Below are positions 2,952 through 23,721 of a DNA stretch of 64,000 nucleotides, in pieces (within the stretch, counting starts at the first letter, position 1; the number at the start of each line of letters is the position of its first letter). The notes beneath the pieces were generated by a model, which had not been told where the DNA came from, searched no databases, and saw only the letters and a program-made list of their open reading frames with translations. The stretch comes from Pararhizobium sp. A13 (GTDB taxonomy: Bacteria > Pseudomonadota > Alphaproteobacteria > Rhizobiales > Rhizobiaceae). The stretch is taken from the NCBI RefSeq assembly GCF_040126305.1, contig NZ_CP149510.1, forward strand, positions 3,793,001 through 3,857,000, read 5' to 3'. The translations under genes were made by a program, and so were the position numbers.

Positions 2952-3022
2952 GACTGCCGCATTTCGGTCTTCCCGCGATTGCGCGGGAAGACCATTCTCC
3001 CTTTTCAAGAAACGGTTGCCGG

Positions 3023-4680: not shown

Positions 4681-4694
4681 GGTATTGATCGTCC

Positions 4695-5756
4695 ATGTCC
4701 TTTCTCGAACTCACCGGCATTCAGAAGAGCTTTGGCCCCGTCCAGGTCGTCAAGGATTTCGACATGGCTATCGAAAAGGGAGAGTTCGTCTCCTTTCTCG
4801 GGCCGTCCGGCTGCGGCAAGACGACAATCCTGCGCATGGTGGCAGGCTTCGAAACGCCGTCGGCGGGAACAGTCGTCATCAACGGGCGCAACCAGAACGA
4901 GCTGAAGCCGAACCAGCGCAATATCGGCATGGTCTTCCAGGCCTATGCGCTGTTCCCGAACATGACCGTGCACGACAACGTTGCCTTCGGCCTGAAGATC
5001 GCCGGCATGGACAAGGCCGCCGTCGACGCGCGCGTCAAGGAGATGCTCGGCCTCATCCATCTCGGCCACCTCGCCGACCGCTTTCCCTACCAGATGTCCG
5101 GCGGTCAGCAGCAGCGCGTGGCCCTTGCCCGGGCGCTGGCACCGAAACCGCAGGTGCTCCTGCTCGACGAACCTCTGTCGGCGCTTGACGCCAAGATCCG
5201 CGTCTCCCTGCGCGAAGAAATCCGGATGATCCAGCAGCAGCTCGGCATCACCACCGTCTTCGTCACCCACGACCAGGAAGAGGCCCTGTCGATCTCCGAC
5301 CGCATCGTCGTCATGAACGCCGGCCGCGCCGACCAGATCGGCACGCCGTTCGACATTTACAACAAGCCAGCCACCCGCTTCGTCGCCTCCTTCGTCGGCA
5401 CCTTGAACCTGATCGAAGGCACGGTCGTCGATCCCGCCGCAAACCGCATCTCGATCGGCGACCAGGGTATCACGCTGCGGGAGCCGCTCGGGCCGGTCAA
5501 GGCCGGCGACAAGGTCTCGCTGGCGCTGCGTCCCGAAGCGGGCTCGATCGCCGAAGGCGCCAAGGGCGATACGGCGCTGACCGGCCAGGTCGTTTCCAGC
5601 AACTTCCTCGGCTCGGTCATCCGCACGCGCATGAAGGTCGGCGATCCGGTGATCTCCTTCGACATGTTCAACGCGCCGGGCCTCAGCCCGCCCGCCGTCG
5701 GCGACGTCGTCACGCTGCGCTTCACGGCGAGCGATCTCCTGATCATTCGCGAATAA
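4695..5756 (+). CDS. ABC transporter ATP-binding protein
   Basis: Energises the importer on the cytoplasmic face. Walker A is GPSGCGKTT near residue 36, the signature is MSGGQQQRVAL near 135, and Walker B is LLLDEPLSALD near 157, followed by the switch histidine in VTHDQEEAL. The last ~110 residues form the C-terminal OB-like (TOBE) domain seen in PotA/FbpC-type ATPases. At 353 residues the length is typical. It is the last gene of the operon, followed by a terminator. Confidence 0.92.
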   Translation: MSFLELTGIQKSFGPVQVVKDFDMAIEKGEFVSFLGPSGCGKTTILRMVAGFETPSAGTVVINGRNQNELKPNQRNIGMVFQAYALFPNMTVHDNVAFGLKIAGMDKAAVDARVKEMLGLIHLGHLADRFPYQMSGGQQQRVALARALAPKPQVLLLDEPLSALDAKIRVSLREEIRMIQQQLGITTVFVTHDQEEALSISDRIVVMNAGRADQIGTPFDIYNKPATRFVASFVGTLNLIEGTVVDPAANRISIGDQGITLREPLGPVKAGDKVSLALRPEAGSIAEGAKGDTALTGQVVSSNFLGSVIRTRMKVGDPVISFDMFNAPGLSPPAVGDVVTLRFTASDLLIIRE

Positions 5757-5785
5757 CAACCGGCGATCCCGCAAAAATATGTTTC

Positions 5786-5824
5786 AGGCGACAGGTTGAT
5801 TGGAAAAATCTGTCGCCTTTTTCG
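5786..5824 (+). terminator. Rho-independent terminator of the ABC operon
   Basis: AGGCGACAG pairs with CTGTCGCCT across a 15-base A-rich loop, and the 3' arm runs into a T tract. It lies 30 bases after the ATPase stop and before the FMN riboswitch. Confidence 0.75.
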
Positions 5825-5883
5825 CTGCGCGCGTCGCACCGCGCATTTGACGCCCGCCGGCCGATCTTTATAGTCAGCCTCGC

Positions 5884-6046
5884 ACGTTCTCAGGGCGGGG
5901 TGAAACTCCCCACCGGCGGTAACGGGAAGAAATTCCCGGAGCCCGCGAGCGCTTCATACACACGTATGCCCGCATACGCGCATGAAGGTCAGCAGATCCG
6001 GTTGAATTCCGGAGCCGACGGTTAAAGTCCGGATGAAAGAGAGCAA
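5884..6046 (+). ncRNA. FMN riboswitch (RFN element)
   Basis: The conserved RFN blocks are present in order: TTCTCAGGGCGGGGTGAAA and CCACCGGCGGTAA, GCCCGCGAGCGC, then a variable stem, GTCAGCAGATCCGG, GGAGCCGACGGTTAAAGTCC and GGATGAAAGAGAG. The element binds flavin mononucleotide and normally lowers expression of the gene downstream, here the lumazine synthase. The boundaries are accurate to a few bases. The 68 bases between element and gene would hold the expression platform; I could not assign a single clear hairpin there. Confidence 0.95.
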
Positions 6047-6111
6047 GCAGATCAGGAGGCACCTTTGCAAGGGGTCACCGCGCCTGCGTGTTCGCCCAAG
6101 GGGATCATTGA

Positions 6112-6618
<507 letters not shown>

Positions 6619-6703
6619 TTGAGGGCGGCGCGGCGTCCGCAACGGATGCCGCGCCGTACCACGCGAGGATCCGCGATGCAGTGGCCGTGCCGAAAGCCGG
6701 CCA

Positions 6704-7510
6704 TCAGGCGAAGGGAACGACGCCCCGACATGCCCAGGCCACCGCTGCAAATGACCTTGGCCCGTCGGGCTGGCCCGCCTCATAAGAAGCCCTAACGGCG
6801 GCGTCAATTTCTGCACGCTGCGCCGAGGCCAGGGCAGCCACATACTTGCCCAAAGGCCCCTCGCCCGCCGCAATGGGCGCCCAGTAATCGTCGAACGACT
6901 GGTACTCCATGCGGATCAGAAGTGAGGTCTGCTCCACGCCCAGCAACCCATGCCCCGCGAAGCTCTGCTTCATTTCATCCGGCCGCATCATCGGCTGGAA
7001 GCAATATCGGCTTCGCAATTGACGTCCATTTTCGTCCAGCATAGCGACGGTATCCACCATCATTCGCATGCCCGGCATGCCGCCGAGGTGGTCCCAGACC
7101 GCTGCTGCGACCACACCGCCCGGACGCACGACTCGACGCATTTCGGCGACCGCCTTGTCCGCTTCGGGCACGAAGTGGAGAACCAGAAGCGACAGCGCTC
7201 GGTCGAAGTAACCGTCCGGAAACGGAAGGGCGCACGCATCTGCTTCCTGGATGGTGATCCGCGGATCGGCGTTGCGCCGTGTCGCCTCCTCGACAAAGAC
7301 AGGCGAATAGTCGATCGCGGCAATCTCGCTGACATTCGCCGCTTGCGGCAACGCAAAGGTCAGGCTTCCAGTCCCGCACCCGACGTCAATTATCCGTTCG
7401 CCATCTGCCAGACCGGCGAAGTCAATCAGAAGAGGCGCGAGCTTCTGGCTCCAACGCCCCATGAGTTGCTCATAGCCAGACGCGCTGCGGACATTGAAGC
7501 TTGAGTTCAT
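6704..7510 (-). CDS. Class I SAM-dependent methyltransferase
   Basis: Methyltransferase of unknown acceptor. The SAM-binding motif VGCGTGSLT is near residue 42, acidic loop AAIDYSP near 65, EADACALPFPDGYFD near 88, and post-motif VRPGGVVAAAVWD near 125. It belongs to the UbiE/Methyltransf_11 group. The ATG at 7510 begins MNSSFNVRSA; five upstream codons to 7525 are possible but less likely. It lies 104 bases downstream of the urocanate-hydratase-like gene on the same strand. I see no motif connecting it with that operon. Confidence 0.8.
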   Translation of the reverse strand: MNSSFNVRSASGYEQLMGRWSQKLAPLLIDFAGLADGERIIDVGCGTGSLTFALPQAANVSEIAAIDYSPVFVEEATRRNADPRITIQEADACALPFPDGYFDRALSLLVLHFVPEADKAVAEMRRVVRPGGVVAAAVWDHLGGMPGMRMMVDTVAMLDENGRQLRSRYCFQPMMRPDEMKQSFAGHGLLGVEQTSLLIRMEYQSFDDYWAPIAAGEGPLGKYVAALASAQRAEIDAAVRASYEAGQPDGPRSFAAVAWACRGVVPFA

Positions 7511-7614
7511 CGAAGCCTCCTCCAAACCGATATGCTACCGCGCGCCATGATCATTGCCAAGGCGTCCGCTATCGGCCTGCCGAAGGCGGCGTTAGCGAGA
7601 CACAGGTCCTCGCG

Positions 7615-9276
7615 TCAACTCAAGCCGATATACCCAATACCCTTCTTCTCAATCTCATCCATCGACTCCTGGTACCCCGCATCCGCATAGCGAATAACGC
7701 CCAGCGACGTGTCGTTGGTCAGCGCGCGGCTCAGCCGCTCCGCTCCGCTCTCGGTGCCATCGGCCACCACCGTCACGCCGCAGCTCGTCATGTAGCCGGC
7801 ATAACCGCCACCGCCGGAATGGACGACGACGAGGTCGGCCATGGAGGAGCAGAGCAGCATCGCGTCGAGCAGCGGCCAGTCGGCGATGGCGTCGGAGCCG
7901 TCCTTCATCCGCTCGGTCATGATGTTGGGGTGCGCCATGGCGCCGGCATCGAGATGGTCGCGGGAAAAGGCGATCGGGCCTTTGAGTTCGCCGGATGCGA
8001 CCAGCGCGTTGACGGCGAGTGCCAGTTCGGTGCGTTCGCCATGGCCGAGCCACGCGATGCGGGCGGGCAGCCCCTCGAAGGGCACGTTTTCCCGCGCCAG
8101 CCTGATCCAGTTGGTGACAATCTTGTTGTCGGGGAACATTTCCAGCAGCAGGTCATCGATGCGGGCGATGTCGCTTTCTTCGCCCGACAGCGCCATCCAG
8201 CGGAAGGGGCCGATGGCGCGGGCAAACAGCGGCCGCAGATAGGCCTCGGTGAAGATGCGGATATCGAAGGCATTGGCAACACCCCCTTCTCGCGCCTGGG
8301 TACGGATCAGGTTGCCGTTGTCGAAGACTTCCGCGCCCTTCGCCTGAAACTCCAGCATCGCTTCGACATGCTCGACGATCGAGGCGCGGCTGGCAGCCAT
8401 CAGTTGCCCCTGCCCCTCGACCCGCAGCCGTTTCACCTCGTCGATGCTCATGCCCTTTGGTACATAGCCATAGACCAGGTCATGGGCAGAGGTCTGGTCG
8501 GTGACGATATCGGGCACGATGCCGCGCTTGGCGATTTCAGGATAGAGCGCCGCTGCATTGCCGACGAGGCCGATGGAGGTGGCGCGCTTTGCCCTGACCG
8601 CCTGATCGATCATCGCGAGCGCCGTATCGAGGTCTGGCGCCACGTGTTCGAGATAGCCGATCGCCTTACGCTTTTCGGCGCGCACGGGATCGACGTCGAT
8701 GCAGAGGATCGCAGCCCCCGCCATGCGGCCGGCGAGCGGCTGAGCGCCGCCCATGCCGCCCAGACCGGCAGTCAAGATGAAGCGGCCGGCGAGATCGCCG
8801 CCAAAACGGTTTTCGGCGATGCGCATGAAGATTTCATAGGTGCCCTGGATGACGCCCTGGCTGCCGATATATTGCCAGGCACCCGCCGTCAGCCCGCCCC
8901 AGCAGATCAGCCCCTGCCTTTCCAGCTCATAGAACACCTCGGCCTTCGCCCACTGGCCGACGATGTTGCAATTGGCCATGATCACCAGTGGCGCCTTTGC
9001 ATGCGTCTTCAAGAGCCCCACCGGCTTGCCGGATTGGATCACCAGCGTCTGGTCTTCATCCATCTCGATCAAGGTCTTGACGATCGCCTTGTGCGACGCC
9101 CAGTTGCGCGCTGCCTTGCCGAGGGCGGCATAGACAATCAGATTGTCCGGATCCTCGCCGACCGAAAGCACGTTTTCCAGAAGCCGCAGCAAAGCCTCCT
9201 GCCGCCAGCCCTTGGCGCGCAGCTCTGGGCCGCCGGGAATGGGGAAGTTCGGGTGACGAGAATTGGCCTTCGGCAT
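7615..9276 (-). CDS. Urocanate hydratase homologue, probable thiourocanate hydratase
   Basis: NAD-dependent hydratase of the HutU fold, 553 residues. The dinucleotide motif GLGGMGGAQP is at about 171-180, with QTSAHD near 261 and RDHLDAG near 436. Several HutU active-site features differ from the classical enzyme: the PARICW segment carrying the reactive cysteine (about Cys410 in Pseudomonas HutU) reads PARIAW here (Ala408), and the glycine-rich HHGGGVGMG segment reads HSGGGGYAG. These changes, and its place in an operon with a MIO-less lyase, a DUF917 protein, an amidohydrolase and a carbamoylase, point to hydration of thiourocanate and not urocanate. Ordinary HutU remains the fallback reading. 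It is the last gene of the operon. Confidence 0.8.
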   Translation of the reverse strand: MPKANSRHPNFPIPGGPELRAKGWRQEALLRLLENVLSVGEDPDNLIVYAALGKAARNWASHKAIVKTLIEMDEDQTLVIQSGKPVGLLKTHAKAPLVIMANCNIVGQWAKAEVFYELERQGLICWGGLTAGAWQYIGSQGVIQGTYEIFMRIAENRFGGDLAGRFILTAGLGGMGGAQPLAGRMAGAAILCIDVDPVRAEKRKAIGYLEHVAPDLDTALAMIDQAVRAKRATSIGLVGNAAALYPEIAKRGIVPDIVTDQTSAHDLVYGYVPKGMSIDEVKRLRVEGQGQLMAASRASIVEHVEAMLEFQAKGAEVFDNGNLIRTQAREGGVANAFDIRIFTEAYLRPLFARAIGPFRWMALSGEESDIARIDDLLLEMFPDNKIVTNWIRLARENVPFEGLPARIAWLGHGERTELALAVNALVASGELKGPIAFSRDHLDAGAMAHPNIMTERMKDGSDAIADWPLLDAMLLCSSMADLVVVHSGGGGYAGYMTSCGVTVVADGTESGAERLSRALTNDTSLGVIRYADAGYQESMDEIEKKGIGYIGLS

Positions 9277-9376
9277 CGTGGTTTTTCCTTCTTCTTGTCT
9301 GCGATCGTATCCCTGTCCCCTCGCACCGCCCCGTCGAGAGAGTTAGCGCAAGGAGGAAGACCGCACCGTTTGTCGT

Positions 9377-9706
9377 TCACTTCGACGGCAGCGAGAGAAC
9401 ATAGGCGAGTGCCGCATCGAGCAGGCGCTTGCGCAGGGCATCGTCGCCATAGGCCTTCACACCCGCGCGCACCCAACCATTCATCTGACGGTCCCCCATC
9501 ACCATGAGCTCGATGCCGGCAAGCGCCAGCGCCCAGCCATCATTGCCCTTGCCGAGGCGCACCAGCATGCCGTCGTTGCGCGCGCCGCAAAGAAGATTGC
9601 CGTCAAGGAGAAAGGCAAGACCACCGAACATCGGCTTCTCGGAGAGCCCCGATCTTTCGCCGAGCTCCTGTCTGATCAGTTCCTCGAGACCGGCGTCGCG
9701 CGCCAT
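9377..9706 (-). CDS. TfoX/Sxy N-terminal domain protein
   Basis: Small 109-residue protein made of the TfoX N-terminal domain only (SEKPMFGGLAFLLDGNLLCGA, then LVRLG, and a C-terminal RMNGWVRAG-type segment). Members are not enzymes as far as known; TfoX/Sxy is a competence activator in gammaproteobacteria, but rhizobial versions have no assigned role. It sits inside the presumed ergothioneine operon, 12 bases after the DUF917 gene and 100 bases before the hydratase. Its role there is unknown. Confidence 0.8.
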   Translation of the reverse strand: MARDAGLEELIRQELGERSGLSEKPMFGGLAFLLDGNLLCGARNDGMLVRLGKGNDGWALALAGIELMVMGDRQMNGWVRAGVKAYGDDALRKRLLDAALAYVLSLPSK

Positions 9707-9718
9707 GACACATTCTCC

Positions 9719-10816
9719 TTATATCCGCCCGGACAAAGCGTAGCTCGCGATGTCAATGCCCATCGCCTTCTCGACCGGCGGATAGACCGAAGGATCAAGC
9801 ACGCTTGAGGCAAGCGGGATCACCGTCTTCGGCACATGCAGCACGAAGATCGTCATGCCGACCTGCAACTGTCCGACGCTTAAGGGTTCGCCATCCGGCG
9901 ACAGCGTCGTGATCACGTCCGGAAAGGTCGCAAGCCGCTTGCCGCCGGCATTCTCCACCGCCATGTATTCGTTCATGATGTGGAGTACCGTAGAGTCATC
10001 GCCCTTCCCGAGCGTCACCGTGCCGATGTCGAAGGCCTCCTTGGTGTAGACGACCGATTTGTCGGTGATGACGCCTTCCGCAAGGATCGTGCCGTTGGTG
10101 GTTTTCGCGATCGTATCGATGATGGCGGTGCCGCCCTTGCCTTCCACAGCGACGATCGCTTCACCGAGAGTCAGGGCCAGCGAGATGCCGCCGAGCGCCG
10201 CATTGGCCTTGACGTAGGAGGCGCGCACCGGATTTCGAGCCGACGCGATGAAGCCGCCGGACATGTCGGAGGCGGTGCGCAGGATCGGCGAAACCTTGGC
10301 GGTCGCGCCGCGCACGACAAGTTCGATATACCGGTTTTCCTCGCGATTGCCGCCGACCGCCGTCTGGATCATCGGCTCGGGCGAACCGGCAAGGCCGATC
10401 GATCCCATGTCGCCGGTCGGATGCGCGCGGATATCACCGACGGCATCGACCACCTTTGTGCCGAGAATGGCCGACGGCAGCCAGCCGTTCAGCGTCGACG
10501 ACTTGCCGTTCTGGCCGACGATCAGCCCTGCGATCTTTTCGCCCAGCGCTTCCTGCAGCAGCTGCACCGCCTTGACGTAGTCGACACCGCGCATTTCCCA
10601 GGGTGTGGTCGAGGCCGGCGCACCGATCGCAGCGGCTGTCGCCACCCAGTCATTCGCATCGAGTTCATCGACCGAAACCAGCTCCGGCTTGCCGATCGAC
10701 ACCGCCGCATAGCCGAGCATCCGCCCATGATGCGCCCATCCGCCACCGCCGGCGGCATAGACCGAGCCGCCCTTGACCGCCGCCTCGACGTCTTTCTCTG
10801 TGAGTATCCGGCCCAT
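9719..10816 (-). CDS. DUF917 (S-methyl-thiohydantoin desulfurase family) protein
   Basis: A 365-residue DUF917 protein: glycine-rich YAAGGGGWAHHG at residues 20-31, VSVDEL near 44, GAPASTTPWEMRG near 65, and GDIRAHPTGDMGS near 127. The family is now linked to desulfuration of (S-methyl-)thiohydantoins and is often encoded beside hydantoinases. Here its start overlaps the stop of the carbamoylase by one base, so it is co-translated. In the proposed pathway it would remove sulfur from the 2-thiohydantoin of propionate, giving hydantoin-5-propionate. The family call is firm. The reaction is inferred from family and context. Confidence 0.8.
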   Translation of the reverse strand: MGRILTEKDVEAAVKGGSVYAAGGGGWAHHGRMLGYAAVSIGKPELVSVDELDANDWVATAAAIGAPASTTPWEMRGVDYVKAVQLLQEALGEKIAGLIVGQNGKSSTLNGWLPSAILGTKVVDAVGDIRAHPTGDMGSIGLAGSPEPMIQTAVGGNREENRYIELVVRGATAKVSPILRTASDMSGGFIASARNPVRASYVKANAALGGISLALTLGEAIVAVEGKGGTAIIDTIAKTTNGTILAEGVITDKSVVYTKEAFDIGTVTLGKGDDSTVLHIMNEYMAVENAGGKRLATFPDVITTLSPDGEPLSVGQLQVGMTIFVLHVPKTVIPLASSVLDPSVYPPVEKAMGIDIASYALSGRI

Positions 10817-12087
10817 CAGCGCTCTCCCTGTAAATTCGCATCGAGTTTCCTCACGGCCTCGAACAAGGTTGCCGCACCGAGCGCGATGTCGTCATTGTCG
10901 GCCCATTCGTCCGGCGTGTGCGACCGACCCTCGCGGCAGGCTATGAAGATCATCGCCGCTTTCGAAATCCGCGCCATCCAGGCGGTGTCATGCCCGGCAC
11001 CGGAGGCCATGCGGCGATGTTTTGCTCCGACACGATCGCAGGCCGCTTCCAGATTGCGCAGCACCAGCGGGTCGGCGGGCGTCGGAAAATTGTCGGAGAT
11101 CAGCTTCGGCGAGGTGATGGACACGCCGGTATCGCGCTGGATATCGACGGAAAGCTGGTCAATCTCAGCGATGAAGCGCTCCATGTCGGGCCGCAGTTCC
11201 GCTCGCGCATCGATCAGCAGCCGGGCTCGGGAGGGCACGACATTGGCCGCGTTCGGTTCGATCGAAAATTCGCCAACCGTCGCGGTGAAATGCCCCTCGC
11301 CCTTGGAAAATTCAGTCCCGAGGCGCTCGATGTCGCCGACCATTCTGGCCGCCGCCGTCAGCGCGTCGCGCCTGCGGCTCATCGGCGTCGTGCCGGCATG
11401 ATCGGCCTGGCCTTCGAACAGGATTTCGATCCGGGTAATCCCGGCGATGGCCGTGACGATGCCCACATCGCAGCGCTCAGTTTCGAGCACCGGCCCCTGC
11501 TCGATATGCAGTTCCAGAAATGCCTTGATGTCCGATCGTTTCTGCAGGGCCAACCGCGACGGGTCGCCGCCGGCATCGATCATGCCCTGGCGCAATGTCA
11601 GATCGCCCTGCGTGCGGCTTAGCCATCCGTCAGGAATCAGCCCTGCCATACCGCGACTGCCGATGCAGGAGACGCCGAAGATCGACACCTCCTCGGCTAA
11701 GAAATCGACAACCTCAAGATCGTGGTCGAGCCGGATGCCCGCATCGTGCAATGCCTGCGCCACCTCCAGCGCCGCCGCCACGCCGGCAATGCCATCGAAC
11801 CGTCCACCCTCCGGCACCGTATCAGAATGCGAGCCGAGCATGATCGTGCCGAGGCCGGATTTCCGACCCTTGCGACGGCCGATCAGGTTTCCCGAAGCAT
11901 CGATCCGGGTTTCGAGGCCGGCGGCCTTGAAGCGTTGCTCCAGAAAGGCGCGCCCCTCCAGAAAGAGCGGCGTGAAGGCGCGCCGCGTATAGGGTCGGTC
12001 CGGTTCGGTGATCCGCGCCAGCCCCTTGATAATGTCGGCGATGCGGCGGGCATCGATTGGCAGATTGGTTTCGACAGCGGCCATCAC
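10816..12087 (-). CDS. M20-family L-carbamoylase (N-carbamoyl-L-amino-acid hydrolase)
   Basis: Metal-dependent amidohydrolase that cleaves N-carbamoyl-L-amino acids to amino acid, CO2 and ammonia; allantoate amidohydrolase is the close relative. Motifs are GSHSDTVPEGGRFDG (metal ligands His, Asp) near residue 86, AEEVSIFG near 132, HIEQGPVLE near 194, and the dimerisation segment GQADHAGTTPM near 227. At 423 residues the length is normal. The ATG overlaps the stop of the upstream amidohydrolase by four bases. In the proposed pathway the substrate is N-carbamoyl-L-glutamate. No allantoin genes are nearby, which argues against an allantoate role. Confidence 0.87.
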   Translation of the reverse strand: MMAAVETNLPIDARRIADIIKGLARITEPDRPYTRRAFTPLFLEGRAFLEQRFKAAGLETRIDASGNLIGRRKGRKSGLGTIMLGSHSDTVPEGGRFDGIAGVAAALEVAQALHDAGIRLDHDLEVVDFLAEEVSIFGVSCIGSRGMAGLIPDGWLSRTQGDLTLRQGMIDAGGDPSRLALQKRSDIKAFLELHIEQGPVLETERCDVGIVTAIAGITRIEILFEGQADHAGTTPMSRRRDALTAAARMVGDIERLGTEFSKGEGHFTATVGEFSIEPNAANVVPSRARLLIDARAELRPDMERFIAEIDQLSVDIQRDTGVSITSPKLISDNFPTPADPLVLRNLEAACDRVGAKHRRMASGAGHDTAWMARISKAAMIFIACREGRSHTPDEWADNDDIALGAATLFEAVRKLDANLQGER

Positions 12088-13463
12088 ATGGCCTCGCGCA
12101 GCGGCAGGCTCGCCAGCGGCCGGATGAATTCGCCGGCGCCCGGCGCGGCCAGCACGGATTTGCCGTCGAAGACAAGCTTACCGCGATTGTAGGTGGCAGC
12201 CACGCGCCACGGTAGCCGGATGCCGTTATACGGCGACCAGCCGACGACGTTGTTGCCGCTTGTCGCCGCGTCGTAGGTGTAAGGCTCCGGCGTCAGAACG
12301 GCGATATCCGCATCCTTGCCAAGTTCGAGTGCGCCCTTGCGGTGATCGAGACGGAAATGCCGGGCCGGATTGAGCGACATCAGATCGGCAGCGCGGGTCA
12401 GCGGAATGCCTCGCTCCAGCGCGCCCTTGACGAACAGCGGGATCATCACCTCGAGCCCTGGCACGCCGGAGGCATTGGCCAGCATGTCCGGATTGGTCTT
12501 GCGGTTTTCCGACCAGCTGACGTGATCGGTCGAGACCAGCGTCACATGACCGTCAGCCACATGCCGCCAAAGCTTTTCCACCTCGGCGCGCGGCCGGATC
12601 GGCGGATTGATCTTCGCCTTGCCGCCAAGCCGCTTCACATCATTCTCCTCGTCGAGAACGAGATAGTGAATGCAGCATTCGATGGTGGCGCGGTACCCTT
12701 GCGCCCGGTAGGCAGCGGCGATCTCGTAGCCGCGGCCGACAGAACAATGCACCACATGCGCCGGACAGCCGGTCGCGGCCCCTGTCTCGTAGATCTGGTT
12801 GGTGGCGAGCAGTTCCGTCAGCGCCGGCCGCGACAGGCCGTGCGCCCGATAGTCGGTGATCCCTGCCGCCTTGACCCTGTCGATCGCCGCCCGCACCGCC
12901 TCGTCGTCTTCATTGTGGACGCCCGCCGTCAGCCCCGTCGGCGCTATTGCGCGAAAACAGTCTTCGAGAAGGCCAGCCGGGATGCGCGGGAAGCGTTTCG
13001 GATCGGTGCCGAAAGTCGAGAACTTGAAGGCGGCGACACCGGCCTCGACCATTTCGCCAATCCTCGCCGGGCCTTCCTCGGGATCGATGGTGCCATAGAG
13101 CGCGAAATCGACGCGGGCCTGCGCGCCGGCATGAACGATCTTGCGCTTCACCGCCTCCGCCGAGCAGACGAGGTTGCCCTCGTCATAGGGCATGTCGACG
13201 ATCGTCGTAACGCCACCGGCGGCGGCAGAGCGTGTCGACCAGATGAAATCCTCCTGATCCTTCTGGCTCAGCGAATGCACCTGCGCATCGATGGCGCCGG
13301 GCAGGATAAGCGCTTGCCCGAGATCATGACGTTCGCGCGCGGCAGGCATCGCGCCTTGCCCGACAAAGGCGATCTTGCCATCGCGCACTGCCACATGCCC
13401 GCCCTCGACGATGCGATCAGGGAGAACCAGTGTGCCCTTCAGAACCAGATCAAAATCAGACAT
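12084..13463 (-). CDS. Cyclic amidohydrolase (hydantoinase/allantoinase superfamily) with altered HxH motif
   Basis: Ring-opening hydrolase of the dihydroorotase/hydantoinase superfamily, 459 residues. The bridging lysine (K147 in AFKFST), later histidines (H183, H236/H239) and catalytic aspartate (D313 in STDHVSW) are all present. The first metal motif, normally HxH after GxID, reads A-Q61-V-H63 here, so one histidine ligand is replaced by glutamine. The likely reaction is opening of hydantoin-5-propionate to N-carbamoylglutamate, because a carbamoylase follows with overlap and a DUF917 gene comes after that. It starts 15 bases after the lyase stop. An allantoinase or generic hydantoinase role cannot be excluded. 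Confidence 0.83.
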   Translation of the reverse strand: MSDFDLVLKGTLVLPDRIVEGGHVAVRDGKIAFVGQGAMPAARERHDLGQALILPGAIDAQVHSLSQKDQEDFIWSTRSAAAGGVTTIVDMPYDEGNLVCSAEAVKRKIVHAGAQARVDFALYGTIDPEEGPARIGEMVEAGVAAFKFSTFGTDPKRFPRIPAGLLEDCFRAIAPTGLTAGVHNEDDEAVRAAIDRVKAAGITDYRAHGLSRPALTELLATNQIYETGAATGCPAHVVHCSVGRGYEIAAAYRAQGYRATIECCIHYLVLDEENDVKRLGGKAKINPPIRPRAEVEKLWRHVADGHVTLVSTDHVSWSENRKTNPDMLANASGVPGLEVMIPLFVKGALERGIPLTRAADLMSLNPARHFRLDHRKGALELGKDADIAVLTPEPYTYDAATSGNNVVGWSPYNGIRLPWRVAATYNRGKLVFDGKSVLAAPGAGEFIRPLASLPLREAM

Positions 13464-13478
13464 GTGCGCCTCCCTTCG

Positions 13479-15017
13479 TCATTGGCCGAGCGCGAAGAAA
13501 TCGTCGAATTCAGGCATCGGAGCCGCAGCCACCAGGGCGAGCAGCAAATCTTCGGATGCAAATACCGCGTGAAGAGCCTCGATCTCCTTTGAGAGCGGCC
13601 GGTCCTTCAGGTAGATTGGGCTCAGCGCGCGGACGCAATCATAGGCGATCTGCGTCACGCCTTGCGGCTTGTCACCGAGCAGATCGATTGCCTGTGCCGA
13701 CAGCAGCGCCTCGATCGCCGCCATCTGGCGCAGATCGCGCACCTGCGTCTCCATGCGCTCGACGATGAGCGGCAGGAACGTTGCTTCCTCTTCGAGACCG
13801 CCGGCAACGACGATCGACTGTGCCGACAGCGGCACTGCCATCGACTGGACGCGCATGTAGAGTTCGACCACGAGCTTCATCAGCGGGCCGAGACCGCTCG
13901 CCACCTCACCGGGAGCGACCAGATTGATCGGCAGGTTTCGCCGCACTCCGTTCGAGAGCAGGATGCAGCGGTTCAGCATATTGCGCGCCACATGGGAAAA
14001 GGCGATCTGCGCCGTCTCGATATAGAGCGTGGTCGTCAGCGGCAGCGAAGCACCCGACGCGTGGACCTGGCCGCCGAGCACCACCGGATTGTCGTCGGAC
14101 AGATAGGTCGCATCGACCAGCCGTTCGGCCGCGACAAGAAGCGTATCCACCGCAGCACCAAACACCTGTGCGGTCATGCGCAAGCTCAAAGGATCATGGA
14201 TCGCCGTCGGCAGCGGCCAATCGACGACATTGGACTGGCCGTAAAGCCAGGACCCGACCAGCGCTTCGCCGCGCGTCGCAAGCGCCGCCGCGACCCGCCA
14301 TGGGTCGGCGGAAGCCCCCAAGGACAGGGACGACATCAGGCCGGTCGCCATCGACACACGGACGGCGGAGGCTGCCTGACGCAGGACATCGGCTGCAGCG
14401 GCAAAGGCCGTCGCGTTAACGCTCAGCGAAGCCAGTGCGTCACGCGGCTGCATGACGAAGGGCTCGAGCCGGGCACGAAGCAGGGCTTCGGCGGCGGGCA
14501 GCAACTCGCCACGGAAAAATGCCTCGCCGGTCCCCGTCAGAACGGAAGCCACCTGCCCCATCAGGCCGATATCGGCGCAACCGATCGAACCATGGCGATG
14601 GACGGCGGGCACGACGCCACACTCCAAAAGACCGAGAAACGCCTTGACGAGATCGACGCTGCAGCCGGTGTGGCCGCCAAGCGCGGTATTGATGCGAATG
14701 GCGATGGCCTTGCGGACAATGACCGGAGAAAACAGCTCGCCGGTGCCGAAATGGTGTGCCTTGACGAGCGCGGCGTTGAATTCCGTGAGATCATCGACCG
14801 TCCACAGACGGTCCTTCATCGAACCGACGCCGGTGTTTGCGCCATAGACCGGCAAGCCCATGGCGAGGCGGTCGGCGATGACCTTATGTGCGGATTGGAC
14901 CCGCGCGAAAGACTGCTCGGCCACCGTCGGCACATAGAGGCCCGAACCGATCTTCTCCAGTGCGGAGAAGTCGAGCGGATTGCCAGTCAGGGCAATGGTT
15001 TTCACCGATGCGTGCAT
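13479..15017 (-). CDS. HAL/PAL-fold lyase lacking the MIO triad, probable ergothionase
   Basis: The 512-residue protein has the histidine/phenylalanine ammonia-lyase fold: PVYGANTGVGS near residues 56-66, RINTALGGHTG near 108, NATAF, and DNPVV near 333. The Ala-Ser-Gly triad that cyclises into the MIO electrophile in true ammonia-lyases reads Cys147-Ala148-Asp149 here (context GSIG before it), so MIO cannot form in the normal way. As I recall, ergothionase is a MIO-independent member of this fold that eliminates trimethylamine, a good leaving group, from ergothioneine to give thiourocanate. The four enzymes downstream fit the later steps. ATG at 15017 is chosen because the sequence upstream (to 15143) lacks family similarity. 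First gene of the operon. Confidence 0.8.
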   Translation of the reverse strand: MHASVKTIALTGNPLDFSALEKIGSGLYVPTVAEQSFARVQSAHKVIADRLAMGLPVYGANTGVGSMKDRLWTVDDLTEFNAALVKAHHFGTGELFSPVIVRKAIAIRINTALGGHTGCSVDLVKAFLGLLECGVVPAVHRHGSIGCADIGLMGQVASVLTGTGEAFFRGELLPAAEALLRARLEPFVMQPRDALASLSVNATAFAAAADVLRQAASAVRVSMATGLMSSLSLGASADPWRVAAALATRGEALVGSWLYGQSNVVDWPLPTAIHDPLSLRMTAQVFGAAVDTLLVAAERLVDATYLSDDNPVVLGGQVHASGASLPLTTTLYIETAQIAFSHVARNMLNRCILLSNGVRRNLPINLVAPGEVASGLGPLMKLVVELYMRVQSMAVPLSAQSIVVAGGLEEEATFLPLIVERMETQVRDLRQMAAIEALLSAQAIDLLGDKPQGVTQIAYDCVRALSPIYLKDRPLSKEIEALHAVFASEDLLLALVAAAPMPEFDDFFALGQ

Positions 15018-15157
15018 GCTTTGACCCACGTTTGATGCCGCACATGCTATGCCCAATCTCCCCGATTGTGATATATCCCAAAAATGGAACAGGCGATGTG
15101 CATTTCGGATCATCCCGTCTTTGTCCCACCTCTGCCGTCGCAAGGATGAAACAGATC
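15018..15157. promoter_or_regulatory. Divergent promoter region, lyase operon / LysR
   Basis: The 140-base gap separates the operon on the minus strand from the LysR gene on the plus strand, the classic arrangement for autoregulated LysR control. I found no convincing T-N11-A palindrome by eye, so no specific operator is claimed. Confidence 0.5.
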
Positions 15158-16336
15158 ATGGATACCGCCACGCTTGCCCTTGTTCATGCGATCCTTGAAG
15201 AGCGAGGAATTCGCCGGGCCGCGAAGGCCGGAGGCCGGCCGGTGGCAAGCGTCAGCGCCGCGCTCAAGCGTTTCGAAGCCGCCATCGCAGTACCGCTCGT
15301 CAGGCGCGAAGGCGGCAATCTCGTGCCGACGCTGGAGGCACAAAGCCGGCAGGCCGATCTGGCGACGGCGAACCGCGCCGTGCAATTGCTTCTATCGCCC
15401 GGCACCGTCGCACCATCGATCGTCGTGCCCTCGATCAGCCTGGCCGCGCTCGATCGCTTCGTCACCGTCGCGCGCAGCGGCAGCATTCGTGGCGCCGCGA
15501 AGATAGCGGGCACCGGCCAGCCGCAATTGACCCGGCAGATGACCGATCTCGAGCGTGACCTCGGCTATGATCTGTTGATCCGCTCCCCGTCCGGTATCGC
15601 CTGCACGCCAGAAGGCTTGGCGGCGATTCCGATCGCCGAAAGCCTGCTCGATATCTGGCGGCGACTTTCGCGCGCGTCCGGCGACCGGTTCCGCCGGACG
15701 GCCGCGACATGGCGTTTCGGCTCCGTCATGCCGCTCGGCCCGGAAAGCGAGATCGCCCGCATGCTGGCGGCCCTGACCGCCGAATGGCACCGCGCCCGCC
15801 CGCGCCAGCCGCTCTTCATCTCCAGCACCACCGCAGACGAGTTGATCGCCGGTTTGAAAAGTCGCCGGTTCGACGTGGTGCTGCTCGATCTCGAAACCTT
15901 CCCGGCAGAGTTTGAGGGCCGGCTCATTTCCCGCACGCCATTGGCGTTGGCCGGTCACCCTTCGCTGTTCGCCAAACACGGCGAGGATATCCGTAAGCTG
16001 CTTCAAGCCAACCCGATCGCGGTTCCCAGCCTGAAGAGCGGCCTTCGCCAACAGGCGGAGCATTTCATCGGCGAAGCTTTGGGCGAGCAGGAACGAAACC
16101 GGCTGACGGTGACCGAGGTTGATTCCATTCCCGTCATCCTCAACCTGGTGATGAACCACGGATATCTTTCGGTGCTTCCCGAAAGCTCTGCTGCGCGCGT
16201 CAGAAACGCCCCGGCGATGCGCAGGCTGGGGCCGGGCTATCTGCAAAACCTCTCGCTCGCCTGGCAGAAAAATGCCCTGTCGCGCCAGGCCGGCGAGGCC
16301 ATGCTGACGATGATGTCGGCGCCTCCCCTTGATTGA
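15158..16336 (+). CDS. LysR-family regulator with two tandem helix-turn-helix segments
   Basis: Likely activator of the divergent lyase operon. The second LysR DNA-binding domain is clear at about residues 95-153 (LAALDRFVTVARSGSIRGAA, then QPQLTRQMTDLERDLG). An additional, more diverged copy precedes it at about 5-62 (VHAILEERGIRRAAK, then SVSAALKRFEAAI). A LysR substrate-binding domain fills the remainder. The 392 residues exceed the usual ~300 by about the extra domain. ATG at 15158 has AAGGA about 11 bases upstream; ATG at 15146 is possible. The ligand may be an intermediate of the operon pathway (inferred). Confidence 0.85.
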   Translation: MDTATLALVHAILEERGIRRAAKAGGRPVASVSAALKRFEAAIAVPLVRREGGNLVPTLEAQSRQADLATANRAVQLLLSPGTVAPSIVVPSISLAALDRFVTVARSGSIRGAAKIAGTGQPQLTRQMTDLERDLGYDLLIRSPSGIACTPEGLAAIPIAESLLDIWRRLSRASGDRFRRTAATWRFGSVMPLGPESEIARMLAALTAEWHRARPRQPLFISSTTADELIAGLKSRRFDVVLLDLETFPAEFEGRLISRTPLALAGHPSLFAKHGEDIRKLLQANPIAVPSLKSGLRQQAEHFIGEALGEQERNRLTVTEVDSIPVILNLVMNHGYLSVLPESSAARVRNAPAMRRLGPGYLQNLSLAWQKNALSRQAGEAMLTMMSAPPLD

Positions 16337-16416: not shown

Positions 16417-17388
16417 TCAGTTCTTGAGCTTGAGACGCCTGCGCGTCTCGCTCGGGCTTTCGCGATAATGGGCGCGGTAACTGCGCGAAAAGGCCGAGGA
16501 CGAATTGAAGCCGGTGGCGGCGGCGATATCGGCGAAATCGGCCCGTGTCTCGATGACCTTGCGCCGCGCCGCATTCAGCCGCAGCGCCAGATAATGTGCA
16601 TGCGGCGCGACGCCCATAGTCTCCTGGAAGAGGTCCTGCAGATGACGCGCGCTGACCCCGGCCCGCTTGGCGAGACGGGTGAGCGTCAGCGGCGCATCGA
16701 CCGTCTCCTCCATCAGCTTGACGGCCGCGCCTACGCGCGCGTCCAGGATGCGCATATTGCCGATCGCCGGCACCTGCAGGAGGTCGCCGCGCGTGCGCTC
16801 CTGCTCGTAGATGAACAGCCGCGACACCTCCAGCGCCAGCGAATAGCTGTGCTGGCGGCGGATCAGTTCCAGCATCAGGTCGAGCGTCGGCAGCGACCCG
16901 CCCGTGGTGATGCGCTTGCCATCGATGACGAAGCGCTCGTGCACCATGGTGATCTGCGGATAGGCGGCAGTGAAATCCTCGAAATCCTCCCAGTGGGTCG
17001 TGGCCGAATAATTGTCGAGCAGGCTGGTTTCGGCCAGCATCCAGGACCCCGATTCAATGCCGGCCATCACCTCGCGATAACGTGCCGTCTGGGAAAGATG
17101 CATGCGCAGATGCGAGGTCGTATAAGCCTGCCAGTTGTAGCTCGACAGGACAAAAAGCGGTGCTGTTTCCTTCTGTGGCCGGAAAGGCCCTGCGACCGGG
17201 ATGGGAATGCCGCTCTTGGTCTCGATCGCCTTGCCGTCCGGACTGAAGATGTCCCAGTCGTAAAGCGCTTTTCCGGCAATGCGGTTTGCGGCGCGCAAGG
17301 GTTCGATCACCGATGCGACGAGGATCAGATTGGTCTCCGGCAGCACGAGCAGGTCGATGTGCTGGGTCTCGTCCTTCGGCACAAGCAT
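16417..17388 (-). CDS. GlxA-family AraC-type regulator (CdhR-like)
   Basis: Transcription factor of 323 residues: an N-terminal class-I glutamine amidotransferase/DJ-1-like sensing domain (about 8-180, FVLSSYNWQAY, MLAETSLLDNYSATTHW) and a C-terminal AraC double helix-turn-helix (about 220-315, LTRLAKRAGVSARHLQDLF and FADIAAATGFNSSSAFSRSYRAHY). GlxA-type regulators called CdhR and GbdR control carnitine and glycine betaine catabolism in Pseudomonas. This gene is divergent from the CdhC gene, so a CdhR-like role is likely. The start at 17388 has GGGG 9 bases upstream; in-frame ATGs at 17397 and 17427 are alternatives. Confidence 0.85.
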   Translation of the reverse strand: MLVPKDETQHIDLLVLPETNLILVASVIEPLRAANRIAGKALYDWDIFSPDGKAIETKSGIPIPVAGPFRPQKETAPLFVLSSYNWQAYTTSHLRMHLSQTARYREVMAGIESGSWMLAETSLLDNYSATTHWEDFEDFTAAYPQITMVHERFVIDGKRITTGGSLPTLDLMLELIRRQHSYSLALEVSRLFIYEQERTRGDLLQVPAIGNMRILDARVGAAVKLMEETVDAPLTLTRLAKRAGVSARHLQDLFQETMGVAPHAHYLALRLNAARRKVIETRADFADIAAATGFNSSSAFSRSYRAHYRESPSETRRRLKLKN

Positions 17389-17498
17389 TCGTCTCATCCC
17401 CGCTCTAATTCTGGAAATGTATAACATGCATCTGAAAAGGGAAAGCAGAACGCTCGTTCTTGGCTCGTAATGAGCAACAAGAACAAGGGGAGGCTTTT

Positions 17499-18401
17499 AT
17501 GCCACTGAGCATGAACCGCGACGTTTTCATCACCTGTGCCGTGACCGGGTCCGGCGACACCGTTTCCAAATCATCGCATGTGCCGATCACGCCGAAGCAG
17601 ATCGCCGATGCAGCGATCGAGGCCGCCAAGGCGGGTGCGGCCGTTGCGCACTGCCATGTGCGCGACCCGGAAACAGGGGCAGCCGCACGCCGCCTCGATC
17701 TCTACAAGGAAGTGACCGACCGCATCCGTTCCGCCGATGTCGATGTCGTGCTCAACCTCACCGCCGGCATGGGCGGCGACCTGATTTTCGGCAATGTCGA
17801 AAGCCCGCTGCCGCTCAATCCGCAGGGCACCGACATGGCCGGCGCCACCGAGCGCGTCGCCCACATCGCCGAATGCCGGCCGGAAATCTGCACGCTCGAC
17901 TGCGGCACGATGAACTTCTCGCTCGGCGATTACGTCATGACCAACACGCCGTCGATGCTGCGCGAAATGGCCCGCCAGATGACGGCACTCGGCGTCCGCC
18001 CTGAAATCGAAGCCTTCGACACCGGCCACCTCTGGTTCGCCAAGCAGCTCGTCGAGGAAGGCCTGATCGAGGATCCGGTCCTCATCCAGCTCTGCATGGG
18101 CATCCCGTGGGGCGCACCCGACGATCTCAACACCTTCATGGCGATGGTCAACAACGTGCCGAAGAACTGGACTTTCTCCGCCTTCTCGATCGGCCGCAAT
18201 GCGCTCGCCTATCCGGCGGCAGCGGTGCTTGCCGGCGGCAATGTCCGCGTCGGCCTCGAAGACAATCTCTATATCGGCAAGGGCCAGCTCGCGACCAACG
18301 GCCAGCTCGTCGAAAAGGCCGTGACCGTCATCGAGGGTATGGGCGCGCGGGTGATCGGACCGGCGGAAGTGCGTGAAAAGCTGAAGCTGACGAAGCGTTG
18401 A
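17499..18401 (+). CDS. cdhC: Beta-keto acid cleavage enzyme, 3-dehydrocarnitine type (CdhC-like)
   Basis: BKACE enzymes (formerly DUF849) condense a beta-keto acid with acetyl-CoA and split it. CdhC converts 3-dehydrocarnitine plus acetyl-CoA into acetoacetate and betainyl-CoA. The 300-residue TIM-barrel protein shows the zinc-site motif AHCHVRDPETG near residue 49, LNLTAGMGG near 84, and GIPWGAP near 204. The next gene is a carnitine dehydrogenase fused to a thioesterase, which fixes the substrate class. ATG at 17499 has AGGGGAGG upstream; an in-frame ATG at 17460 would add 13 unrelated residues. Confidence 0.85.
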   Translation: MPLSMNRDVFITCAVTGSGDTVSKSSHVPITPKQIADAAIEAAKAGAAVAHCHVRDPETGAAARRLDLYKEVTDRIRSADVDVVLNLTAGMGGDLIFGNVESPLPLNPQGTDMAGATERVAHIAECRPEICTLDCGTMNFSLGDYVMTNTPSMLREMARQMTALGVRPEIEAFDTGHLWFAKQLVEEGLIEDPVLIQLCMGIPWGAPDDLNTFMAMVNNVPKNWTFSAFSIGRNALAYPAAAVLAGGNVRVGLEDNLYIGKGQLATNGQLVEKAVTVIEGMGARVIGPAEVREKLKLTKR

Positions 18402-18420
18402 CTGCGCGTATGAGGCGAAG

Positions 18421-18596
18421 GCCCCCTCATCCGGCCTGTTGGGCCACCGTCTCCCCGTTGGGGAGAAGAGGGTGAGCGGAACAACCGCTTCACAAACAAA
18501 CTCGCAGCACGCAAGCGGTTTTGAAGACAAGGGCGGCAATTTTCCCTCTTCTCCCCAGTGGGGAGAAGGTGGCCCGAAGGGCCGGATGAGGGGGGA
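18421..18596. repeat. Intergenic palindromic repeat A (RIME-like)
   Basis: The left part (ccctcatccggcc..., tctccccgttggggaga) and right part (tctccccagtggggaga..., ggccggatgaggg) are inverted copies flanking about 60 bases, and each contains its own short hairpin. This resembles Rhizobium intergenic mosaic elements. It separates cdhC and cdhA. Confidence 0.7.
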
Positions 18597-18633
18597 ACCG
18601 CGAATGCAGAATTCACGAGGGAACGCAGAACTC

Positions 18634-20127
18634 ATGACCAAAATCACCAAGGCGGCCTGCATCGGCGGCGGCGTTATCGGCGGGGCCTGGGCGGCGCGCT
18701 TCATCCTGGCCGGCGTCGACGTCAACATGTTCGATCCGCATCCGGAGGCCAAACGCATCATCGGCGAAGTCATGGCCAATGCCGAAAAGGCCTATGCCAT
18801 GCTCACCATGGCGCCGCTGCCGAAGAAGGGCACGCTCACCTTTTGCGAGAGCGTTGAAAAGGCCGTTCAAGGCGCTGAATGGATTCAGGAAAGCGTGCCC
18901 GAACGGTTGGAGTTGAAGCGTGGCGTCCTCACCCAGATCGACGCGGCAGCCTCCCCCGATGCGCTGATCGGCTCCTCCACCTCCGGCCTGATGCCGTCCG
19001 ACCTGCAGGCCGAGATGAAGAACCCTGAGCGCATGTTCGTGGCGCACCCCTACAACCCCGTCTACCTCTTGCCGTTGGTCGAGCTCGTCGGTGGCAAGAA
19101 GACCACGAAGGAAACGATCGCCCGCGCCGGCGCCGCTGTCGAACAGATCGGCATGAAGGGCGTCGTCATCGCCAAGGAGATTGAGGCCTTCGTCGGCGAC
19201 CGCCTGCTCGAAGCCCTCTGGCGCGAAGCCCTCTGGCTGATCCAGGACGATATTTGCGATACCGAAACGCTCGACAACGTCATGCGCTATTCCTTCGGCA
19301 TGCGCTGGGCCCAGATGGGCCTGTTCGAGACCTACCGCATCGCCGGCGGCGAAGCCGGCATGCGCCACTTCCTCGCCCAGTTCGGCCCCTGCCTGAAATG
19401 GCCGTGGACGAAATTCACGGACGTCGTCGATCTCACCGACGAATTGGTCGAAAAGATCGGCCAGCAGTCCGACGATCAGGCCGCAGGTCGCTCAATCCGC
19501 GAACTGGAGCGCATCCGCGACGAAAACCTCGTCGGAATCATGCATGCGCTGAAAAACAGCGACGGCGGCAAGGGCTGGGGTGCCGGCAAGCTGCTTGCCG
19601 AGTTCGAACAGCGCCTCTGGGCCGACGCCGAAAAGCCGCAGGCCGATCTGGGTCAAGCCGAACCTATCCGCATCCTCGACACCAAGGTCAATGCCGCCTG
19701 GGTCGACTACAACGGCCACATGACCGAACACCGCTACTTGCAGGTCTTCGGCGACACATCCGACGGCCTGCTCCGTCTGATCGGCGTCGATCTGGAATAT
19801 GTAAAGGATGGCCATAGCTACTACACGGTCGAGACCCACATCCGGAACCTCGGCGAAGCCAAGCTCGGCGACGCGCTGTATTCAACCTGCCAGATCCTGT
19901 CGCACGACGAAAAGCGCCTGCACATCTTCTCGGCAATCTACAATGCCGCATCCAACGAGCTTGTCGCGACGGCCGAGCAGATGCTGCTGCATGTGGACAG
20001 CAAGGCAGGCAAGGCAGTGCCGGCGCTCCCGGCAGTCATCGCCAAGGTGAAGGCGATTGCAGAAGCGCATGCCGGCTTGCCGAAGCCGGAGGGTGTTGGA
20101 CGCGCGGTCGGCCAGAAGCGCTCGTGA
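18634..20127 (+). CDS. L-carnitine dehydrogenase fused to thioesterase domain (CdhA-CdhB)
   Basis: The N-terminal ~320 residues are a 3-hydroxyacyl-CoA dehydrogenase-type NAD enzyme (GGGVIGGAWAA at about 11-21, catalytic HPYNPV near 142) of the L-carnitine 3-dehydrogenase family. It oxidises carnitine to 3-dehydrocarnitine. Residues about 345-470 form a hot-dog thioesterase (AWVDYNGHMTEHRYL), matching betainyl-CoA thioesterase CdhB, a separate protein in Pseudomonas. The fusion joins the first and last steps flanking CdhC, giving glycine betaine. ATG at 18634 fits the family N terminus (MTKITKAACIGGG); ATG at 18604 is a possible earlier start. Confidence 0.88.
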   Translation: MTKITKAACIGGGVIGGAWAARFILAGVDVNMFDPHPEAKRIIGEVMANAEKAYAMLTMAPLPKKGTLTFCESVEKAVQGAEWIQESVPERLELKRGVLTQIDAAASPDALIGSSTSGLMPSDLQAEMKNPERMFVAHPYNPVYLLPLVELVGGKKTTKETIARAGAAVEQIGMKGVVIAKEIEAFVGDRLLEALWREALWLIQDDICDTETLDNVMRYSFGMRWAQMGLFETYRIAGGEAGMRHFLAQFGPCLKWPWTKFTDVVDLTDELVEKIGQQSDDQAAGRSIRELERIRDENLVGIMHALKNSDGGKGWGAGKLLAEFEQRLWADAEKPQADLGQAEPIRILDTKVNAAWVDYNGHMTEHRYLQVFGDTSDGLLRLIGVDLEYVKDGHSYYTVETHIRNLGEAKLGDALYSTCQILSHDEKRLHIFSAIYNAASNELVATAEQMLLHVDSKAGKAVPALPAVIAKVKAIAEAHAGLPKPEGVGRAVGQKRS

Positions 20128-20130
20128 CTT

Positions 20131-20225
20131 TCCCTCCCCCTTGTGGGGAGGGTGGCCCGAAGGGCCGGGAGGGGTTCTTTTTGGAGCGTTCCCCTCCCCA
20201 ACCCTCCCCACAAGGGGGGGGGAGA
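20131..20225. repeat. Intergenic palindromic repeat B (RIME-like)
   Basis: cctcccccttgtggggagggt and its inverted partner (accctccccacaagggg) flank a GGGCCGGGAGGGG core. It occupies most of the gap between the carnitine dehydrogenase and acyl-CoA dehydrogenase genes. Confidence 0.7.
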
Positions 20226-20278
20226 GCCTCGAAGCGAGCGGTGCGTTAGAGGCAGACAAGAACAGGAGGGAACATACG

Positions 20279-21439: not shown

Positions 21440-21463
21440 CGATGATTTTGATCTGGCAAGACA

Positions 21464-21645
21464 CCCCTCCCCAACCCCTCCCCACAAGGAGGAGGGACTT
21501 AATTCACCGCGCCCTTGTGCGACCTCCCCGATTGCCATGTGCGGGAGTTCCCTCCTTCGTTGGGCGGGTGATTGACGCAATGCCGTTGCCGCAGGTTAAG
21601 CCCCTCCCTCTTGCGGGGAGGGGTTGGGGCGGGGCATTCGCGTCA
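21464..21645. repeat. Intergenic palindromic repeat C (RIME-like)
   Basis: The left arm (cccctccccaacccctccccac) and the right arm (gcggggaggggttggggcgggg, about 21615-21637) are inverted copies with about 100 bases between. It lies between the dehydrogenase and the CoA ligase genes; the ligase ribosome site AAGGAG follows it directly. Confidence 0.65.
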
Positions 21646-21662
21646 AACGAAGGAGCCACCGA

Positions 21663-23717: not shown

Positions 23718-23721
23718 CCCT

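Follow-up and report, generated by a model that had tools for sequence, protein, structure and literature searches.

A predicted ergothioneine operon

We report a gene cluster of the soil bacterium Pararhizobium sp. A13 that is, with a probability of about 0.93, a complete operon for the catabolism of ergothioneine by the known five-step pathway. It lies in the window, by which we mean the whole 64,000-nucleotide stretch of DNA that was analysed (C1:3793001-3857000, C1 being contig NZ_CP149510.1, in a genome of 6.36 Mb in three contigs). An earlier note, made from the letters alone, had recognised six nearly gapless genes of one strand and a LysR gene diverging from them; the open reading frames are indeed found there, the six on the minus strand from about 15029 down to 7615, and the LysR gene on the plus strand with its real start at about 15158 and its end at 16336. 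From the lyase gene to that of the HutU homologue, the first junction leaves 15 bases, the next two genes overlap their neighbours by 4 bases and 1 base, and the last two junctions leave 12 and 100 bases. The Pfam assignments of the six proteins (Lyase_aromatic, Amidohydro_1, Peptidase_M20, S-Me-THD, TfoX_N and Urocanase) agree with that description. The features are as follows.

13479 to about 15029, minus strand: ertA, lyase of the histidine ammonia-lyase (HAL) fold lacking the 4-methylideneimidazole-5-one (MIO) group, predicted ergothionase, which may start at an ATG four codons past the GTG (PF00221; match to PDB 6s7j; residues, tree and predicted fold)
12084-13463, minus strand: ertD, hydantoin-5-propionate amidohydrolase (NF058538, 799.3 bits, cut-off 600)
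10816-12087, minus strand: ertE, N-carbamyl-L-glutamate amidohydrolase (NF058540, 608.6 bits, cut-off 520; M20 metal-site motifs conserved)
9719-10816, minus strand: ertC, thiohydantoin desulfurase, S-Me-THD/DUF917 (NF058529, 594.4 bits, cut-off 440)
9377-9706, minus strand: TfoX_N-domain protein of about 109 amino acids, accessory or passenger (PF04993, 35.2 bits)
7615-9276, minus strand: ertB, thiourocanate hydratase (NF058530, 1045.4 bits, cut-off 930)
15030-15157, no strand: divergent intergenic region of 128 bases, whose conserved element has its TTGGGATAT core on the minus strand at 15073-15081
15158-16336, plus strand: LysR-type regulator with two winged helix-turn-helix (wHTH) modules (two HTH_1 stretches, AlphaFold model, conservation)

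The ergothioneine reading proposed in the earlier note holds up: all five enzyme steps are represented, four of the proteins exceed the cut-offs of curated NCBIfam equivalog models, and the lyase is nearest to a solved ergothionase. The reading draws on the identities of the genes and on their conservation, and takes its chemistry by analogy from characterised families. In that chemistry, ErtA would eliminate trimethylamine from ergothioneine to give thiourocanate, with the Lys of its GPLMK motif and a retained Glu serving as acid/base residues in place of MIO. ErtB, with NAD+, would hydrate thiourocanate to thiohydantoin propionate, and ErtC would take the sulfur off as H2S, leaving hydantoin-5-propionate. 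ErtD would then open the ring to N-carbamoyl-L-glutamate, from which ErtE would yield glutamate, CO2 and NH3.

The lyase

ErtA matches PF00221 with 252.8 bits; its best PDB match is the ergothionase 6s7j (186.6 bits), the next being a HAL with MIO (129.3 bits). The absence of the MIO tripeptide, already seen in the earlier note, is clear from the alignment: the protein reads GSIG-CADIG at the site where HAL reads GSVGASGDL, and GS(I/M)G(C/T)AD is present in all 120 of the relatives listed, out of 548 found. Three further motifs stand out, namely HDPLSLR, in which Leu replaces the catalytic Tyr of HAL, GPLMK with its Lys, and GGLEE, in which the Glu is kept. All 13 operon rows combine a lost MIO site with this Leu and with the Lys of a GPxxK motif, as do 12 of 13 Treponema denticola-type rows, the exception (P0263) having Asn in place of Lys.

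We built a maximum-likelihood tree of 60 lyase rows, 16 with the MIO site, 43 without it, and L002, the genome's own HutH-like protein. The earlier note would have given up its reading had the lyase grouped inside the MIO clade; in the tree it lies outside, MIO and MIO-less rows being split with support of 100/99. L002, itself without MIO, joins the MIO-bearing rows by a long branch. The AlphaFold model of ErtA (mean predicted local distance difference test score, pLDDT, 89) has 6s7j as its best structural match, with a template-modelling (TM) score of 0.89 and a root-mean-square deviation (rmsd) of 2.2. No NCBIfam ergothionase model matched the lyase in the curated-model scan. From its sequence, its key residues, its place in the tree and its predicted fold, we predict that ErtA is an ergothionase.

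The other enzymes

On NF058530, thiourocanate hydratase is sharply set off from urocanase: over 398 Pseudomonadota genomes the model found some match in 155 but passed its cut-off in only 6 (at least 1028.6 bits), the next score below these being 720.3 and the genome's own HutU scoring 688. The best PDB match of ErtB is 7ned (816.8 bits), well above other urocanases (next 616.2); the two share HSGGGGYAGYMTS and differ by sequence divergence only. Although deposited as urocanate hydratase, 7ned is presumably a thiourocanate hydratase. In one respect the earlier note was mistaken. It had described a HutU homologue missing the key cysteine region; the region is present, and Ala occupies the position of the catalytic Cys of Pseudomonas putida urocanase. 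Since Ala is likewise found there in the PDB urocanases 1x87 and 7jfz and in the genome's own HutU, the absence of Cys does not discriminate, and we ruled it out as a diagnostic of thiourocanate hydratase.

ErtE also passes more general models, NF009531 with 687.6 bits (cut-off 486) and TIGR01879 with 331.3 (cut-off 204), and because the general Zn-hydrolase model outscores the specific one, its assignment leans partly on context. Amidohydrolases usually carry DxHxH; ErtD reads DAQVH, with the first His replaced by Gln in all 66 aligned rows. The TfoX-like gene is optional, being found in 40 of the 67 ert loci described below.

Conservation across genomes

Two sets of loci were compared. The first comprises 47 loci from Rhizobiaceae-type genomes, all close kin and found by the lyase alone (68-96% identical); the second comprises 20 further stretches, no fewer than six being records already in the first, with eight in the clade of the window's lyase and 12 bearing remoter lyases (31-54% identical). 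The 67 ert loci are the sum of both, 6 duplicate records included. Homologues of ErtD, ErtE, ErtC and LysR are present in 47/47 loci of the first set and ErtB in 46, the contig of the remaining one ending first. By lyase, the nearest named species are Rhizobium giardinii, at 94% identity, and R. herbae, at 93%.

A second subfamily of lyases (RTGS, 52-57% identical; from R. leguminosarum, Devosia and Martelella) was considered as the mark of a different pathway. We rejected this because the loci with remoter lyases have ErtB and ErtC in 12 of 12 cases, and ErtD and ErtE in 10 of 12 within the stretch taken (not L093 and L103). In these loci ErtB, ErtC and ErtD are still 72-86% identical, and the lyase is therefore the fastest-evolving component.

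The lyase was found in 20 of 199 family genomes sampled (E 1e-60 or better). A class-wide sample gave a match in 15 of 289 genomes (E 1e-40 or better), 11 of which were merely 27-35% identical, some with the MIO site. Among 645 plasmid records searched with the lyase, one (Shinella, 69.7%) fell at 60-80% identity and 644 below 60%; of 59 others listed, 36 were named hutH or histidine ammonia-lyase, with best identities in the 20s and 30s. The plasmid records added nothing.

A regulator with two DNA-binding modules

The LysR protein (392 amino acids) has two HTH_1 stretches and a LysR_substrate domain. In its AlphaFold model these stretches form two modules, each a wHTH with a linker helix, at residues of about 3-82 and 95-179; with a mean pLDDT of 85.7 and a predicted TM score (pTM) of 0.51, the domains look sound and their mutual arrangement is uncertain. 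The 50 rows listed by a Foldseek search are structures of the LysR family, with alignments of about 300-325 columns. Both modules were recognised in 62 of the 67 loci (exceptions L086, L087, L088, L094 and L103), a locus being counted, since the modules resemble each other, when it gave two matches with the proper order and spacing. In the 199 family genomes, where up to nine candidates per genome were scored, a two-module homologue occurs in 19 of the 20 lyase-bearing genomes versus 1 of the 179 others (G067). Sixteen of the 19 adjoin the lyase; the other three lie elsewhere and are 32-33% identical.

The intergenic region is conserved as well. The TTGGGATAT core is found in 53 of 57 intergenic regions and in 36 of 38 non-redundant ones, against a mean of 0.05 and a largest value of 1 in shuffled sequences. 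Upstream of it we often see by eye TGTTC, GCATC and GTTC at similar spacing, and GCATAGCAT follows the core in 23 of the 38 non-redundant regions. The pattern GTTCN(3-5)TTTGGGATAT is present at a single place in the genome, the operon's intergenic region. Most likely, the divergent LysR protein switches the operon via this element, which we infer to be its operator and which could partly be promoter.

A wider proposal, to which we would give slightly less than even odds, has two parts. One is that these proteins form a distinct two-headed LysR subfamily, with tandem modules of wHTH and linker helix, that reads a composite element some 45 bases long (TGTTC, GCATC, GTTC, then TTTGGGATAT) instead of an ordinary LysR box and acts as an ergothioneine-specific sensor. 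The other is that ergothioneine is the substrate of the OsmF-type betaine importers of related ert clusters and of their close homologue encoded at another place in this genome.

The LysR genes of some relatives (L009, L013 and L049) carry an in-frame insert of about 55 codons in the linker between the HTH modules. The first 48-65 bases of the insert match, at 86-96%, the arms of an inverted repeat in the window (18422-18472 and 18544-18594); this repeat (18422-18594) is also found in 29-39 of the loci searched.

Uptake of ergothioneine and fate of trimethylamine

The EgtD family (PF10017) has no match in the genome (EgtB was not searched), so that the genome probably does not make ergothioneine and the compound is probably imported. 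Four distant ert clusters, of other lineages, contain within the operon a four-gene ATP-binding cassette (ABC) importer (L093 5201-9172, L094 10870-14751, L104 5308-9202 and L105 about 5380-9150). Its binding protein is of the OsmF/glycine-betaine type (361-494 bits); EgtUC chains score about 99-103 bits. Outside the window, at C1:891916-892800, the genome has its own homologue of this binding protein, 74% identical, at which the composite control element was not found. The ABC transporter of the window itself (1848-5756) was also considered as the importer. This candidate is unsupported: its ATPase is PotA/PhnT2-like but under the cut-offs of those models, the transporter was found in 14 of 47 loci, some of which are short, and the importers lying within other ert clusters belong to a different type, OsmF.

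Genes for the use of trimethylamine lie at about C1:3865-3876 kb, 57-68 kb from the operon. Trimethylamine monooxygenase (Tmm, 855.3 bits, cut-off 675) and trimethylamine N-oxide demethylase (Tdm, 1260, cut-off 1100) both pass their models, and the same region encodes a trimethylamine N-oxide permease (839.2, cut-off 690) and a DmmA-family protein (120.6, cut-off 60). Trimethylamine released by ErtA might then be oxidised and demethylated by Tmm and Tdm some 60 kb away.

Weighing the assignment

One rival reading is an operon for an oxidised or modified form of the compound, such as ergothioneine sulfonate or S-methyl-ergothioneine, instead of ergothioneine itself. A bacterial ergothioneine sulfonate pathway was reportedly published by Yan in 2022, attached by a citing paper to Agrobacterium radiobacter, a bacterium of the same family, and the S-methyl models do match our proteins. 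Their scores, however, stay under cut-off (S-methyl-thiourocanate hydratase NF058531 on ErtB, 746.5 versus 880; S-methyl-thiohydantoin desulfurase NF058532 on ErtC, 276.6 versus 450), whereas the ergothioneine models pass. A dedicated thiohydantoin desulfurase also suits a thione sulfur, while the sulfur of a sulfonate would more probably be released as sulfite. We thus regard a modified substrate as unlikely.

We give still less credence to a variant hut cluster, or one for hercynine or N-methylhistidine. The lyase lacks both MIO and the HAL Tyr and scores 197.9 on the hutH model, far under its cut-off of 539.15; moreover, the genome has a separate true hut locus (HutH 735 bits, and the HutU already mentioned), and a desulfurase would be purposeless in such a cluster. 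What speaks for it are names: of the two end genes, Pfam labels one urocanase and the other aromatic amino acid lyase, and relatives of the lyase go under histidine ammonia-lyase or aromatic amino acid lyase in public sources. The expectation of the earlier note that automated annotation would call the operon histidine degradation now applies to the lyase only, the one enzyme that current models would misname. Least credible is an operon for the salvage of hydantoins or pyrimidines into which hut-like genes were recruited. Although the amidohydrolase matches allantoinase and dihydropyrimidinase models, it fails both (AllB 277, cut-off 358; dihydropyrimidinase 207, cut-off 393), and the carbamoylase, which is over the general hydantoinase/carbamoylase model TIGR01879, passes the ErtE model just as its partner passes that for ErtD. 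The recurrence of the same gene set in several clades also argues against this origin.

Several observations pull against the assignment to ergothioneine catabolism. ErtA is only about 27-28% identical to 6s7j, and the fold of its model is matched nearly as well by the MIO-bearing P. putida HAL (TM 0.87, rmsd 3.1). Four MIO-less rows (P0134, P0135, P0136 and P0140) are without the Lys, one of them, P0140, retaining the HAL Tyr, and the four fall between the operon-lyase and T. denticola-type groups. The branch joining these two groups is weak (86/67), and the tree program flagged uneven amino-acid make-up in 19 rows; the groups may thus be old sisters or separate MIO-less branches. The characterised Burkholderia and Agrobacterium ergothionases, including that of Burkholderia sp. 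HME13 reportedly described by Muramatsu in 2013, lay outside the lyase comparison. No importer gene is found inside the operon at the window locus. Finally, Tmm is absent from 11 of the 20 lyase-bearing genomes; it is present in 9 of 20 versus 24 of 179 others (p=0.0015 by genome), but by genus the counts are 4/11 versus 15/98 (p=0.098), so that a functional tie between ert genes and Tmm is suggestive by genome and not established.

Neighbouring genes

Carnitine genes adjoin the regulator.

16417-20127: GbdR/CdhR-like regulator (minus strand), BKACE (plus strand) and carnitine 3-dehydrogenase/thioesterase (plus strand) (NF005716, neighbourhood counts)

The dehydrogenase passes NF005716 with 905.7 bits (cut-off 592); the GbdR model fails (213.9, cut-off 480). 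The carnitine catabolic genes extend over 16417-24504, the CdhR/GbdR-like regulator, BKACE and dehydrogenase-thioesterase fusion being followed by acyl-CoA dehydrogenase-like, CoA-ligase-like and CaiD-like genes. A CdhR-like regulator with BKACE lies near the operon in 47/47 loci of the first set and in 8/20 of the second, all eight in the clade of the window's lyase. The carnitine genes are thus linked to the operon within that clade and are not a step of the pathway.

Near the true hut locus, at C1 about 479.5-481.0 kb (L139:13460-14956, minus strand), is a second HutH-like gene, whose product reads GSAGYLSHNAH, lacks the MIO site and the HAL Tyr, and scores 465 bits on the hutH model (cut-off 539). 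Its neighbours are a gene for a HisP-like ABC ATPase and one resembling N-methyl-L-tryptophan oxidase (423 bits, cut-off 257); this neighbourhood possibly encodes a pathway for an N-methylated amino acid.

Relation to known systems

Passages of PMC7653990 trace ergothionase and the glutamate route to work of 1957-1963 and count Agrobacterium radiobacter among ergothionase-bearing bacteria. PMC13405746, a paper of 2026, gives as definitively identified hosts Burkholderia, two species of Cupriavidus, A. radiobacter and T. denticola. A BLAST search described there recovered only proteins named as histidine, phenylalanine or tyrosine ammonia-lyases (HAL, PAL, TAL), and the paper concludes from such a search that the enzyme is restricted to a few genera, with the caveat that the search did not extend to homologues that are divergent or poorly annotated. 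The present operon, with lyases filed as HAL or aromatic amino acid lyase, is an instance of such homologues.

Ergothioneine is a mushroom antioxidant made by fungi and actinobacteria, and our comparison suggests, at the level of sequence, that a number of Rhizobiaceae (Rhizobium, Pararhizobium, Ensifer/Sinorhizobium, Shinella) consume it. The residue signature together with the gene neighbourhood offers a simple route to finding more ergothionases, and the two-headed regulator, with an element that occurs once in this genome, might serve as an ergothioneine sensor. The pathway itself is already known. The two-headed regulator and its conserved control site look unusual: in the open-licence literature searched, which included PMC5882156, we found no paper on a two-headed LysR and no precedent for one with the composite site. 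The same literature gave no precedent for an OsmF-type importer in this role (a search for OsmF/YehZ with ergothioneine returned one unrelated paper) and no paper linking trimethylamine monooxygenase, rhizobia and ergothioneine.

EgtU is described as an ergothioneine ABC importer (PMC9732360; PDB 9egi). The binding protein of the importer embedded in ert clusters matches EgtUC, yet is far closer to the OsmF/glycine-betaine type, and, unlike those four clusters, the window has no such gene. The regulator resembles CbnR, BenM and OxyR in its LysR_substrate domain and its wHTH with linker helix, but differs from them in carrying these modules in tandem and in its length of 392 amino acids versus about 300. 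Like the T. denticola ergothionase 6s7j, ErtA is a MIO-less HAL fold with Leu for the HAL Tyr, a Lys (GTIQK there, GPLMK here) and the Glu kept; unlike it, ErtA has CAD at the MIO site, where the T. denticola type has EGD or EAD, and is distant from it in sequence.

Five-step bacterial ergothioneine catabolism was reportedly reconstituted by Beliaeva, Leisinger and Seebeck in 2021. The operon described here contains the same five enzyme families as that system, four of which pass NCBIfam models named for the steps, but is set apart from it by another host lineage, a TfoX-like gene inside the operon, a two-headed LysR beside it and adjoining carnitine genes.

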